Origin: Tangfeifania diversioriginum
GTDB lineage: Bacteria > Bacteroidota > Bacteroidia > Bacteroidales > Prolixibacteraceae
NCBI RefSeq assembly: GCF_900141875.1
Contig: NZ_FQZE01000008.1
Coordinates: forward strand, 62,001-126,000
Direction of reading: 5' to 3'
DNA length: 64,000 bases
In this document: piece by piece, positions 5,643-10,691 of the stretch
Layout of the letters: each line of letters opens with the position of its first letter
Position numbering within the stretch: position 1 is the stretch's first letter
Position numbers and translations under genes: made by a program
The notes under the pieces: model-generated
What the model was told of the DNA's origin: nothing
The model's database searches: none
What the model saw: the letters and a program-made list of their open reading frames with translations, nothing else

Positions 5643-6419
5643 TTAAGCGGCAATAGTGCCATAATATATAAGTTCATTGACAAGGTTTCGATTTTTAGCA
5701 GAGTATGCATAATAACTTTCCCGGCATATTTACATGGTCGTCCCTTCTTCCCGGTTGAAGGCCAGGTATAAATACTTCAGGTCGGCATCATCGCGCAAAC
5801 GGCTTATCAGGTGCATGTCCATTTCTATGATTTGATCCACAAAAGGCTTTTTGGAAAACCAGGCATCGGCAACAAGGTATTTTGAAATGGAGCAAAGTGT
5901 TTCTTTGCGTTCTTTTATAATGTTTGCATACCAATCAGTCAGACTGGTTACCTTTATCTTCAAACAGGGTTTGAACAGCCTCAAGGTGGAACGCAGTGTG
6001 GTTGTCCAAATCGATGGCTGCAAGGCCGCCAATTTCAAGGCCCCATTTTGCCTGTCCTGCACAACCAGACCAATACCAACCCAGTCCTGGTGTTTTCTTC
6101 CCTGATTTATTGATGTAGCTCGAGTCAAATGCGATTACAAACCGGCTGCCACCATGCGAAAGGGCAAGTTCTATGTTAAAATCGAGCCAGGGAAAGGTTT
6201 TTTAAATTGTTGTCGGTATCTTTGTTCTTTGAAATTTCCATAGCGGCCAAGCTGTAAGAAGTTGACACGCCCTTTAATGGAAAGCAAAAGGATAACGACT
6301 TCGCAGAAAAAGTCTTTCCTGCATTTGTTAAAAACTGATATTCTATTTAATATTCTGATAATTAATAAATTGTAGTTATTATATCCCCTGATAGTCATTC
6401 TGTAACAGATTTGTGGCAA
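5643..6419 (-). pseudogene. Decayed IS4-type DDE transposase
   Basis: Pieces of one transposase appear in different frames in order along the minus strand: an N-terminal part with SIKGRVNFLQLGRYG (6171-6419), a middle part with HGGSRFVIAFDS and GLGWYWSGCAGQAKWG (about 5950-6190), a C-terminal part with YLVADAWFSKKPFVD and LISRLRDDADLKYL (from 5730), and an end part with GRPCKYAGK and NRNLVNELIYYGTIAA stopping at 5643. Each join needs a one-base shift, near 6189, 5946, 5755 and 5712, so the gene is dead. I did not find clear terminal inverted repeats. The assignment to the IS4-like group is from the sequence character of these blocks. Confidence 0.8.
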
Positions 6420-7011: not shown

Positions 7012-7083
7012 TAGCCCCACCAGGAATCGAACCTGGATCTACGGTTTAGGAAACCGCTATTCTATCCGTTGAACTATGGGGCC
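7012..7083 (-). tRNA. tRNA-Arg (anticodon CCT)
   Basis: The minus strand folds as a 72-nt cloverleaf: acceptor GGCCCCA/TGGGGCT (the first pair is a G-U wobble), D arm GTTC/GAAT, anticodon arm GCGGT-TTCCTAA-ACCGT with anticodon CCT, and T arm with GGTTCGAATCC. The discriminator is A, and CCA is not encoded. It reads AGG codons. Confidence 0.93.
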
Positions 7084-7295
7084 ATCCTTTTTTCAGGTCT
7101 GCAAAAATAGACAAAAACCTATTCTCCGACAAATCATTCAAAAAATTATCTCAACAACAGCAGGCTGCATTTTTAACGAGGTTAAAATAACGGTGGATTT
7201 TTTTCATTCAACTGCAACAAAATCCCTTCCTGCGATTCAAAAAACCAAAAAAACATTAAATTTTCATTCCCGTATTAATTTTAAAATTTGAACTG

Positions 7296-7326
7296 TTTGA
7301 TTCAAGAAAAAATAGTATTAGTTTTA
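7296..7326 (+). promoter_or_regulatory. Bacteroidota-type promoter for the trpB2 leader
   Basis: TTTG (7296-7299), a 19-bp spacer, and TAGTTTTA (7319-7326) match the TTTG-N19-TAnnTTTG consensus at all but the last base. Transcription would begin about 7330-7335, giving a leader of roughly 180 nt before trpB2. Confidence 0.65.
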
Positions 7327-7348
7327 CCACCCTGAAAAAAAGAAAGAT

Positions 7349-7438
7349 ATGTACACCATGCCATCATACGGAAAAGAGTGGAACTGGCGCAACGTGAAAA
7401 TGGAAGCGCGGGAAATAAATAATAGTAAACGGATATAA
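7349..7438 (+). CDS. Candidate tryptophan leader peptide (29 codons)
   Basis: An ATG at 7349 opens a 29-codon frame ending in TAA at 7436-7438. It contains KEWNWRN at residues 9-15, so two Trp codons sit at positions 11 and 13 in a very short peptide. The frame begins shortly after a consensus promoter and ends 5 nt before a terminator hairpin, directly upstream of a tryptophan synthase gene. This matches the layout of ribosome-mediated attenuation leaders. What is seen is the frame and its context; translation and control are inferred. Confidence 0.6.
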   Translation: MYTMPSYGKEWNWRNVKMEAREINNSKRI

Positions 7439-7443
7439 TACCG

Positions 7444-7481
7444 AAAAGGGATTTATTGTTAAAGCAGTAAATCCCTTTTTT
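7444..7481 (+). terminator. Attenuator-type intrinsic terminator before trpB2
   Basis: A perfect 12-bp stem, AAAAGGGATTTA (7444-7455) with TAAATCCCTTTT (7468-7479), closes a 12-nt loop and runs into a T-tract. No plus-strand gene other than the leader frame lies upstream, and trpB2 starts 33 bp later, so the hairpin can only act on the trpB2 transcript or the leader itself. Confidence 0.75.
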
Positions 7482-7513
7482 CGTATAAAATAAACTTCAA
7501 AAAAATAAAAATC

Positions 7514-8890
7514 ATGACTCATCAAAAGAAAATTTATCTCGAAGAATCGGAAATGCCCAAACAGTGGTACAACCTGGCACCCGACCTGCCCACTCCTATG
7601 AATCCGCCGCTGGGGCCCGACGGGAAACCTGTTACACCCGAAATGCTGGCACCGGTATTCCCCATGAACCTGATTGAACAGGAAGTAAGCCAGGAACGCT
7701 GGATCGACATCCCGGAACCCATCCGTGAAATTCTGGTGCAGTGGAGGCCAAGTCCGCTCGTCCGAGCTTACGAACTGGAAAAAGCACTGGATACACCGGC
7801 CAAAATTTATTACAAAAACGAAGGCGTTTCGCCGGCGGGAAGCCACAAACCAAACACGGCAGTTGCCCAGGCCTGGTACAACAAGGAGTTTGGAATTAAA
7901 AAATTAACCACTGAAACCGGTGCCGGGCAATGGGGCTCGGCCCTTTCGTTTGCCTGCGCACAATTGGGTGGCATTGAATGCAAGGTTTTTATGGTGAAAG
8001 TGAGTTTCGACCAAAAACCTTTCCGTAAAATGATGATGGAGACCTGGGGTGGCAAATGCATTTCCAGTCCAAGCAACGAAACTCAGGCAGGGCGTGATAT
8101 TCTGGCTAAATACCCCGATACTCCGGGAAGTCTGGGTATTGCCATTTCGGAAGCCATTGAAGAAGCTGTAACTGACCCAAAAAAAGAGACCCGTTATTCA
8201 CTGGGGTCGGTACTGAACCATGTGATGCTGCATCAAACCATCATCGGGCTGGAATCACAAAAGCAACTGGCAAAAGTGGGCATTAAAAATCCGGATGTGG
8301 TAATCGGATGTTGCGGCGGCGGCAGTAATTTTGCCGGTATTTCATTTCCGTACATGTATGAAAAAATTCATGGTGCCAACATACAAATTATTGGGGTGGA
8401 ACCTTTTAGCTGTCCAACCTTAACAAAAGCGCCATTTATTTACGACCACGGCGATGTGGCTAAAATGACACCTCTTCTGGCTATGAACAGCTTGGGACAC
8501 AATTTTGTGCCGGAACCTATTCACGCGGGCGGATTGCGTTACCACGGAATGTCGCCCCTGGTAAGTGCCGCGCTGAGAGACGGATTGATGGAGGCACAGG
8601 CCATCCACCAAAGCGAGTGTTTTGAAGCCGGATTGCTGTTTTCAAAAACCGAAGGAATTATTCCTGCCCCGGAAACCACTCATGCCATTGCATCAACCAT
8701 TAGGGAAGCTAAAAAGGCGAAAGAAGAAGGCAAGGAAAAAGTCATCTTATTTAACTTTAGCGGACACGGACTGATGGATTTGGTTGGATACAACAAATAC
8801 TTAAACGGCAATTTACACGATCATGAATATCCGGAATCGGAAATCGCGAAAAACCTGAAGGAACTGGAAGATTATCCGATGCCGAAATAA
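7514..8890 (+). CDS. trpB: Tryptophan synthase beta chain, TrpB2 type
   Basis: The 458-residue PLP enzyme is of the longer stand-alone TrpB2 class, with the N-terminal extension [14 protein letters not shown] that TrpB1 lacks. The PLP lysine lies in AGSHKPNTA (about residue 112), followed by [14 protein letters not shown] and the phosphate-binding CCGGGSNF near residue 263. It condenses indole and serine to tryptophan; TrpB2 proteins are thought to salvage free indole or work without the usual TrpA contact. No trpA or other trp gene is adjacent. The upstream leader and terminator suggest tryptophan-responsive expression. A terminator at 8941 ends the transcript. Confidence 0.92.
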
Positions 8891-8982: not shown

Positions 8983-9940
8983 AAAAGAAAGCAAATACCA
9001 ACTCATCCGGAACATCGGGTTGAACTTCATTCAGCATCTCTTTTATGTCTTCAAAACAGTGCCGTTTGCCGGAAATTTTTTGATTCAAAAAATCAGCTTT
9101 TTGTTCAGAAAAGAAATCGCCCGAAACAGCGGCTTCAGTAATCCGGCCCTTTTCGGCATTCAATGCTATTTTTATAGTTCTGTCTCCCAATTTAGCTTCA
9201 TTCTGAAACGCATATTTGGGTGAATATCCGAAATTCCACTCCCAGGTTTTAAACTTTTCATCGGCAAGTTTTTGAATTGCCAGGTTATCTACTTCGGTCA
9301 ATTCATACACTGAATTTTCTTCATTTTCGAGTTGAACACCAAGCAGAAACCTTCTGAATTCTTCAGTCGTAATTTTATTCTTCAGAAAAGGTTGAATGTT
9401 GGCAACAAAACTCCGGTTCGACTGCACAGCTTTGCCGGTGTACTTTCCGGGAGCCACTTTTATAGAATGCCCCAGACTGCTTAAGTCAGAATCAAAAAGT
9501 AGGGTTCCGTGGTGCAGCACCCTCTTTTTGAAAACGTGCTCGGCATTCCCCGAAATTTTTTTATCGTTCACCAGCAAATCGTTCCGCCCTGAATTTACAG
9601 CGGTTACACCGAGCTCTGCCAGCGCCTCAACTACAAATTTTGTAAATTTTTTGAAATTGATTTCAGCAGTGTCGTTTACATTTTTGATGTAAGCAAAATT
9701 TACATTCCCGGCATCGTGGAAAACAGTTCCGCCACCGGAAATACGACGGGCAACAGTAATATTATTCTCCCGTACAAATGGGTAATTGATTTCCGCCAGG
9801 GCATTTTGGTGCTTGCCCACAACCACTGTGTCGTAACTTTGCCAGAGCATAAAAATATCCTTACTGAAATTTTTCAGCAGGTACTCTTCGGCAGCCAGGC
9901 AAAAATACGGGTCGCTATTTTCAAGCTGAATACAAAGCAT
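8981..9940 (-). CDS. lplA: Lipoate-protein ligase A
   Basis: The 319-residue product has the biotin/lipoate ligase fold signatures: VVVGKHQNALAEIN near residue 40, the lipoyl-binding RRISGGGTVFHDAGNVNF around 64-82, and the later Lys-containing DKKISGNAEH. It activates free lipoate with ATP and attaches it to lysines of 2-oxoacid dehydrogenase E2 or GcvH proteins. The C-terminal accessory domain (about residues 240-319) is present, so the protein looks full length. It is convergent with trpB2 and shares that gene's terminator region; no operon partner is visible. Confidence 0.92.
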   Translation of the reverse strand: MLCIQLENSDPYFCLAAEEYLLKNFSKDIFMLWQSYDTVVVGKHQNALAEINYPFVRENNITVARRISGGGTVFHDAGNVNFAYIKNVNDTAEINFKKFTKFVVEALAELGVTAVNSGRNDLLVNDKKISGNAEHVFKKRVLHHGTLLFDSDLSSLGHSIKVAPGKYTGKAVQSNRSFVANIQPFLKNKITTEEFRRFLLGVQLENEENSVYELTEVDNLAIQKLADEKFKTWEWNFGYSPKYAFQNEAKLGDRTIKIALNAEKGRITEAAVSGDFFSEQKADFLNQKISGKRHCFEDIKEMLNEVQPDVPDELVFAFF

Positions 9941-10088
9941 TGTTCTGGTTCGTTTTTCAACGTGCGATTTACAAATTGTAATTCAAAAATTATCACAAAT
10001 CACCTAAATTTTTAGTGCCTCGTGCTTCTGAAATCACATCCTTTTAAAATTCACGGGTTTTCATTTACTTTAACTCAAAATACTTGTA

Positions 10089-10691
10089 ATGAACTGGCTC
10101 AAAATTTTTCCATTTCTCGGATTCATGATTCTCACTGCTTTAATTTCGGGAAAAATATTCCTGCTGCAAAAAAGAGGTGTAAAAGTTAGCTCCGGCAATG
10201 AAAATCCTCCCCGGTTTATGTTCATCCTTTACCCGGTCTTTTTTATTCTGCTGCTGGCCTGGGTTTTTGAGCTGGCAAAACCGGTGTTTCACTTTCAGTT
10301 TTCCATTTTGAACAGCCTTTTAACCACGCCGCTTGCCGATTATCTTTTTCTTGAAATTGCCGGCGCTTTGCTGATTTTTATTTCACTGATTTTCATGGGT
10401 CTAACACTGCATAATTTTAAAGCCTCGCTGCGTTTTGGACTGAATGAAAACAACCGCGGTGAATTGATTACCAACGGTATTTTTTCATTTTCGCGCAACC
10501 CGTTTTTTTTGTCCATCATGATTTATTTCCTGGGCACAGCGCTCGTTTTCCCCAGCTGGTTTTTCATCGGATTTGCCGTGTTAGCCATTTTCAGCATCCA
10601 TCTTTTCATTCTGAAAGAAGAGAAATTTATGGATGAACATTTTGGCGAAAGCTACCGTGAATACCGGAAAAAAGTAAGGCGGTATTTTTAA
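10089..10691 (+). CDS. ICMT/phospholipid-methyltransferase-like membrane protein
   Basis: This 200-residue membrane protein has five or so hydrophobic segments. It ends with the family hallmark: GELITNGIFSFSRNPFFLS around residues 121-140, then a C-terminal EEKFMDEHFGESYREYRKKVRRYF-type block. That R-N-P and E-x-x-Y-R-x-Y pattern is typical of isoprenylcysteine carboxyl methyltransferase-related and NnrU/PEMT-like proteins that bind S-adenosylmethionine within the membrane. The substrate is unknown, and bacterial members probably do not act on prenylated proteins. It stands alone between lplA and a repeat element. Confidence 0.78.
   Translation: MNWLKIFPFLGFMILTALISGKIFLLQKRGVKVSSGNENPPRFMFILYPVFFILLLAWVFELAKPVFHFQFSILNSLLTTPLADYLFLEIAGALLIFISLIFMGLTLHNFKASLRFGLNENNRGELITNGIFSFSRNPFFLSIMIYFLGTALVFPSWFFIGFAVLAIFSIHLFILKEEKFMDEHFGESYREYRKKVRRYF

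Follow-up and report, generated by a model that had tools for sequence, protein, structure and literature searches.

The locus examined here raises the question of whether a stand-alone trpB2 gene in a member of the Bacteroidota is controlled by ribosomes that stall on Trp codons in a short leader. Tryptophan attenuators of the Escherichia coli trpL type, with relatives in Proteobacteria, consist of a leader open reading frame (ORF) carrying Trp codons, an antiterminator and a terminator. Classical attenuation requires a ribosome that moves closely behind RNA polymerase. Bacteroidota have unusual promoters and mostly lack Shine–Dalgarno sequences, and the role of TrpB2 in indole salvage is itself a hypothesis. 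The gene lies in a 64,000-nucleotide stretch of Tangfeifania diversioriginum DNA, the whole of which is called the window below. A promoter, a leader ORF with Trp codons, a terminator and trpB2 are conserved together, and on sequence grounds a ribosome-mediated tryptophan attenuator very probably controls trpB2. The tiny Trp-rich frame and its stop signal would most likely turn the gene on only when tryptophan is short, in many Bacteroidales. The features of the leader are as follows.

7296–7299, + strand: promoter element of the −33 type, TTTG (from the sequence)
7319–7326, + strand: promoter element of the −7 type (TAnnTTT[AG]), TAGTTTTA (from the sequence)
7349–7438, + strand: leader ORF of 29 codons, MYTMPSYGKEWNWRNVKMEAREINNSKRI followed by the stop codon (ORF translation)
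7379–7387, + strand: putative regulatory codons Trp-Asn-Trp, TGG AAC TGG (Trp codon conservation)
7387–7409, + strand: hairpin 1:2, GCGC at 7387–7390 with GCGC at 7406–7409 (fold, −8.1 kcal/mol)
7420–7461, + strand: candidate antiterminator 2:3, UAAUAGUAAA at 7420–7429 with UUUAUUGUUA at 7452–7461 (best fold)
7430–7443, + strand: small hairpin CGG...CCG of 3 bp with the leader stop codon inside its loop (by eye and single folds)
7444–7479, + strand: intrinsic terminator hairpin 3:4, 16 bp with a loop of 4 nt (−18.7 kcal/mol)
7514–8890, + strand: trpB2, 458 amino acids, a TrpB-like PLP enzyme (NF009057, TIGR01415, PF00291)

The original prediction, made from the letters of the window, described most of this arrangement correctly. 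The Bacteroidota promoter that it claimed is present: TTTG and TAGTTTTA are spaced by 19 nt, and the latter differs by one letter from TAnnTTTG, the −7 promoter consensus of Bacteroidota. The 29-codon frame with Trp-Asn-Trp at codons 11–13 was likewise found as described, with Trp11 at 7379–7381 and Trp13 at 7385–7387. A terminator hairpin with a T-tract does begin 5 nt past the leader stop codon, its stem folding as 16 bp rather than the 12 bp proposed and its T run (7476–7481) lying partly within the stem. trpB2 follows, starting 34 nt after the end of the hairpin and not 33. The RNA of 7330–7513 folds more stably than 200 of 200 dinucleotide shuffles (z = −3.75), and the stop-codon hairpin, 3 bp in the window, is longer in several relatives, on visual inspection and in individual folds. 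Upstream, a tRNA gene occupies 7012–7083 on the minus strand. Farther away, a 132-amino-acid ORF (window positions 5730–6128, minus strand) gives a weak, below-cut-off match to a transposase DDE domain (PF01609, E = 0.0022) and is possibly a transposase remnant.

These elements would work in the classical manner. When Trp-tRNA is ample, the ribosome would read on, and segment 2 would be covered or refolded into hairpin 1:2; with segment 2 unavailable, the terminator would form and transcription would end short of trpB2. A shortage of charged Trp-tRNA would instead make the ribosome wait at Trp11/Trp13 and cover the 5′ strand of 1:2, and the freed segment 2 would capture segment 3 (the terminator 5′ arm and loop), so that no terminator would form and trpB2 would be transcribed. 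In the clade of the window, the ORF is predicted to run through segment 2, usually stopping near the small hairpin that the antiterminator would enclose.

The identity of the downstream gene is secure, its product exceeding the curated cut-offs of both models: 715.9 bits against NF009057 (cut-off 366) and 625.7 bits against TIGR01415, trpB_rel (cut-off 518.85). At a search threshold of E ≤ 1e-100, TrpB2 was present in 95 of the 140 genomes of the window's family, 105 of 295 in the order and 29 of 395 in the class. The named carriers of the closest TrpB2 are mostly Prolixibacteraceae (Draconibacterium, Mariniphaga, Maribellus and Sunxiuqinia). For comparison of leaders, the family set comprised the window and 92 further trpB2 upstream regions, drawn from the 95 TrpB2 genomes with G419 and G423 left out. 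The order set comprised 86 of 105; the other 19 were four window or family members already counted, six without a convincing leader and nine that were left out. The leader peptides belong to unrelated-looking types, YGKEWxWRN[VI]KMExRE in the window's clade, GNWWWRS/GNWWWWHN, NCWRWxWW and others, and by eye the Trp cluster is the sole feature that they share. The DNA motif of the clade ORF occurs once each in 57 of the 140 family genomes (reversed-pattern control, 0); in all 57 it has the same orientation as trpB2 and precedes it by 136–311 nt. Pooling the named contigs with the other genomes gave 122 distinct leaders, 58 from the clade and 64 others (161 before the removal of identical ones), including a probable chance match from outside the Bacteroidota (L049) that was kept in; where 56 rather than 58 distinct clade leaders are counted, a different extraction rule was used.

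Hairpin 1:2 has a 4-bp stem, GCGY:RCGC, that starts at the last base of Trp13. Pairs 7387:7409 and 7389:7407 are intact in 58 of 58 distinct clade leaders, while 7388:7408 is broken in 11 of them (13 of 56 in the other leader set). Pair 7390:7406 is C–G in 24, T–A in 33 and C–A in one of the 58. Because the 5′ change is silent (Arg14, CGC/CGT) while the 3′ change alters an amino acid (Ala20/Thr), the exchange at 7390:7406 suggests that the RNA itself is under selection at this site. The leaders being related, these counts do not represent separate events.

For the antiterminator, we folded the stretch of RNA that stays accessible while a ribosome sits at the cluster's final Trp codon, with the 3′ terminator arm not yet made, and compared the energy added by pairing of the spacer with the terminator 5′ arm against that of shuffled spacers. 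The original prediction had suggested a search for compensatory changes and an alternative fold; the search showed pairing above chance across relatives, with stabilization at p ≤ 0.05 in 43 of 122 leaders (18/58 in the clade, 25/64 in the others) against 10 of 122 (5/58 and 5/64) in a mismatched control in which spacers were joined to terminators of the other group. A simpler duplex test reached p < 0.05 in 10/58 and 33/64, respectively. The pairing is built from differing sequences, such as TAAACAACATG/CATGTTGTTTA in L056, GTAATAAAC/GTTTATTAC in L244 and GATAAACAATGG/CTATTGTTTATC in L268, with differently built versions also in L172, L255 and L269; in L008, an 11-bp helix of AAACGCGGGAA with UUUUCUGCGUUU encloses the stop-codon hairpin. 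A helix competing with the terminator was thus found for the leader group, the result of a stricter spacer swap being much weaker: when spacers from the whole leader set were exchanged, the native one ranked in the best 5% in 2/58 clade and 12/64 other leaders (14/122), with medians of 0.445 and 0.159. Within the clade, no covariation was detected in a fixed 2:3 register (7.84 of 11 pairs with a leader's own spacer versus 7.88 with swapped ones; 1681 of 2000 permutations were at least as good), and RNAalifold gave no consensus antiterminator on the truncated clade alignment. Since covariation is absent within the clade and swapped spacers perform nearly as well in most leaders, support for the antiterminator rests on the shuffle-based energy tests and the mismatched control. 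These support it for the leader group, and for the window itself we infer it.

The window's own candidate, UAAUAGUAAA with UUUAUUGUUA, forms 10 AU-rich pairs and is no better than shuffles by energy (p = 0.22) or as a duplex (p = 0.37), so the earlier remark that the window holds no convincing anti-terminator still stands, and this weakness is the main gap in the attenuator reading. It would agree with an attenuator that has decayed in this species, its antiterminator being too weak and trpB2 transcription mostly ending at the terminator or else passing it at a constant rate, as would the energies of the two folds (−6.1 kcal/mol for the alternative against −18.7 for the terminator). Yet the window retains its Trp codons, 1:2 stem, terminator and promoter in intact form, and antitermination, as is generally known from E. 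coli trp, is kinetic and does not require the more stable fold. We regard decay as improbable.

The leader peptide bears on a second alternative. Trp11 and Trp13 are each retained in 54 of 56 distinct clade leaders, the conservation among relatives that the original prediction had proposed to look for; the codon between them varies (H, N, A or S). The neighbouring codons are also constrained, pN/pS for codons 7–10, 12 and 14–18 being 0.19 (bootstrap over codons, 0.06–0.36; 56 distinct sequences), as a pairwise and not a tree-based estimate; a looser clade rule (9/16 matches with no residue demanded) returned the identical 56 sequences and the same value. Plain attenuation does not require conserved leader amino acids, and the purifying selection seen here suggests that amino-acid identity next to the Trp codons is important.

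Such a pattern might be expected of a TnaC-like arrest peptide, in which stalling would come from the nascent chain, on sensing Trp or another ligand, in place of slow Trp decoding, and would decide whether the terminator forms. The non-Trp residues are under purifying selection at codons 7–10 (pN/pS 0.11) and 14–18 (0.13), and at four of the 92 family loci (L185, L204, L205 and L206), where by eye one Trp codon is left, YGKE/RNVKME is mostly kept. These four carry Gln or His at codon 11, or Gln at codon 13, in place of Trp, and the terminator and most of the peptide persist. Against an arrest peptide, codons 19–23 are looser (pN/pS 0.62), the C-terminal part and stop position vary, the ORF enters the terminator in L004 and L023, and by eye little beyond the Trp cluster is shared outside the clade. 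The conserved C-terminal residues and fixed stop position of the TnaC type were not found in these leaders, in which the C-terminal codons and ORF length vary. We consider arrest a rather remote prospect and a Trp-codon attenuator the better account. It is a tentative and somewhat doubtful further idea that the clade peptide does more than count Trp codons, with YGKE ahead of the Trp codons and RNVKME behind them selected as amino acids. Stalling might be modulated by the nascent chain, or the 29-mer might have a trans function once released; in that event, the trpB2 attenuator would have a functional product besides the enzyme.

The arrangement was also compared over a wider range of genomes. 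An ATG-started ORF with at least two Trp within six codons lies no more than 420 nt upstream of 119 of 179 trpB2 genes (window included), against a mean of 9.45 (maximum 20) in 20 dinucleotide shuffles and three on the reverse strand; for at least three Trp per six codons, the counts are 42 of 179, 0.25 in shuffles and 0 on the reverse strand. Terminators in relatives were called by fold-based scans, and a strict rule demanded both the cluster of at least two Trp within six codons and a terminator at the right place. It was passed by 76 of 92 family genes (ten shuffles, mean 0.3, maximum 1; reverse strand, 0) and by 37 of 86 order genes (shuffles, mean 0.6, maximum 2; reverse strand, 0), counts that are not independent, as the compared sequences are kin, and that in the order may include a few chance matches. 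The 37 order loci are spread over 23 of the 48 families examined; a cluster of three or more Trp per six codons occurs in 29 of the 37, from 19 families. The rule failed for 16 of the 92 family genes and for more than half of the order genes (49/86). In the family, 79 of 92 genes have an ATG-started ORF with at least two clustered Trp, three leaders start by eye with GTG or TTG instead (L203, L221 and L224) and six genes show no leader by eye (L219, L220, L223, L225, L229 and L230).

In the 50 nt that precede the leader ORF, a −7 promoter element is present in 57/57 clade leaders (6.8 expected from shuffles) and 42/63 others (7.4 expected), and the full TTTG-N17–23-TAnnTTT[AG] arrangement in 13/57 (0.2 expected) and 22/63 (0.8 expected); one leader per group was dropped here, its upstream DNA being too short. 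Short leader ORFs with clustered, conserved Trp codons and an intrinsic terminator between ORF and trpB2 thus recur among relatives, and the prediction withstood a comparison in which the Trp frame and terminator might have been missing or the Trp codons might have drifted. A chance ORF before an ordinary terminator is hardly credible: short ORFs are common and a tRNA gene lies nearby, but that gene is transcribed away from the leader, and chance is excluded for the group because shuffles and the reverse strand, at 0.3 and 0 against 76/92 in the family under the strict rule, fall far below the observed counts. The proposal that trpB2 is regulated by stalling at Trp codons is thereby supported, with the Trp cluster, the terminator and, in a significant share, a fitting antiterminator kept across divergent leaders; the readthrough response is what we infer from them. 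We presume that classical Trp attenuation of trpB2 extends across a large part of the sampled Bacteroidales families.

Searches of the window and 20 relatives with Rfam 15, which presumably includes the Trp leader and T-box families, led us to reject a T-box or any other riboswitch of a known kind. Over the whole window, two tRNAs alone reached the gathering score; positions 7200–7560 at E ≤ 10 gave 11 matches, all far below the cut-off and from unrelated families; and the leaders of 20 relatives gave no match. If trpB2 and trpE attenuators are widespread in Bacteroidales, annotators could recognize a leader family that has no Rfam match where tested.

Among the 28 class-wide loci besides the window, the upstream region looks like a Trp leader by eye only in L093 and in L106–L110 of the family f50, and a few others have scattered Trp codons in some ORF. 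The distant f50 loci carry a GWGWVWR-type Trp-rich stretch upstream of TrpB2, with an ATG start not always present, and this is possibly a separately built leader. In a Spirochaetes metagenome-assembled genome (MAG; L053), a TrpR-family gene lies just upstream of TrpB2 (1498–1932; PF01371, 2.6e-18), and six further non-Bacteroidota MAGs (L048, L050, L054, L063, L068 and L080) have, by eye, a TrpR-like gene directly 5′ of TrpB2. Such loci would have a TrpR-like gene in place of the attenuator, as judged by profile in L053 and by eye in the others.

Control by Trp attenuation is already known as a kind, and it is the controlled gene, trpB2, and the lineage, Bacteroidales, that appear to be new. 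One study predicts trp attenuators in Actinobacteria (PMC1262725); these and E. coli trpL resemble the trpB2 leader in having a clustered-Trp ORF, an antiterminator and a terminator before a Trp-synthesis gene. Unlike the E. coli trpL type, the present leader precedes a stand-alone trpB2, occurs in Bacteroidota and has no Rfam match (window and 20 relatives); leaders of the window's clade also have a conserved peptide and an ORF that extends across segment 2. In the same phylum, a transcriptome map of Flavobacterium psychrophilum suggests leader-peptide attenuation for amino-acid operons (PMC9723704), the same proposed mechanism; its main text does not mention trpB, trpE or tryptophan. The Sinorhizobium meliloti peptide peTrpL, likewise from a Trp attenuator, has a reported trans function of its own (PMC7298713), whereas the trpB2 leader peptide, which is not known to act in trans, shows conservation at the amino-acid level only. 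Small ORFs resembling attenuator leaders are mentioned for Bacteroides thetaiotaomicron (PMC7366714), and trpB2 is noted in the group Bacteroides (PMC1854888). Among the matches listed from open-licence PMC full text, none described attenuation of trpB2 in Bacteroidota.

If the attenuator reading is true, the spare stand-alone TrpB2 would belong to the tryptophan-starvation response, a placement that fits the hypothesized indole salvage. The principal tryptophan genes appear to be controlled similarly. The genome of the window contains an apparent trpEGDCFBA operon (gene names assigned by inspecting the ORFs; a chorismate-binding domain was found) with one further small ORF inside the cluster. 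Of 57 trpE loci detected across 60 genomes, 30 were examined for a leader, and these 30 family loci all have a leader ORF with at least three clustered Trp; in a control over a slightly different span, such ORFs were found in 29/30 real sequences, 0/30 on the reverse strand and none of the mononucleotide shuffles. Two separate Trp ORFs lie within 420 nt in 19 of the 30, and trpE is apparently preceded by two tandem Trp attenuators in this genome (L114) and many others of the family. If attenuation of trpB2 and trpE is common in Bacteroidales, transcription–translation coupling would be predicted there, because the ribosome must trail RNA polymerase closely, and their Trp leaders could provide a simple reporter for testing it.

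The first trpE leader encodes IWLPWWGLL in near-invariant DNA (TGGCTTCCGTGGTGGGGTCT) and the second is of the NWWW type (L114 reverse strand; L294–L323). In the genome of the window, each of the two leaders has a terminator; an alternative helix is clear for leader 1, and no convincing one was seen for leader 2. The leader 1 DNA motif occurs in 73 of the 140 family genomes (three matches in the reversed-pattern control). In the 24 genomes compared, it shares a strand with trpE and precedes that gene by 211–1000 nt, with 1000 nt in this genome versus 211–526 nt in the 23 others. Between leaders 1 and 2, this genome carries a nucleotidyltransferase gene (PF18765/PF01909) paired with one for a HepT-like RNase (PF01934), at 1534–2158 on the reverse strand of L114 (+ coordinates 9844–10468), in a toxin–antitoxin-like arrangement.
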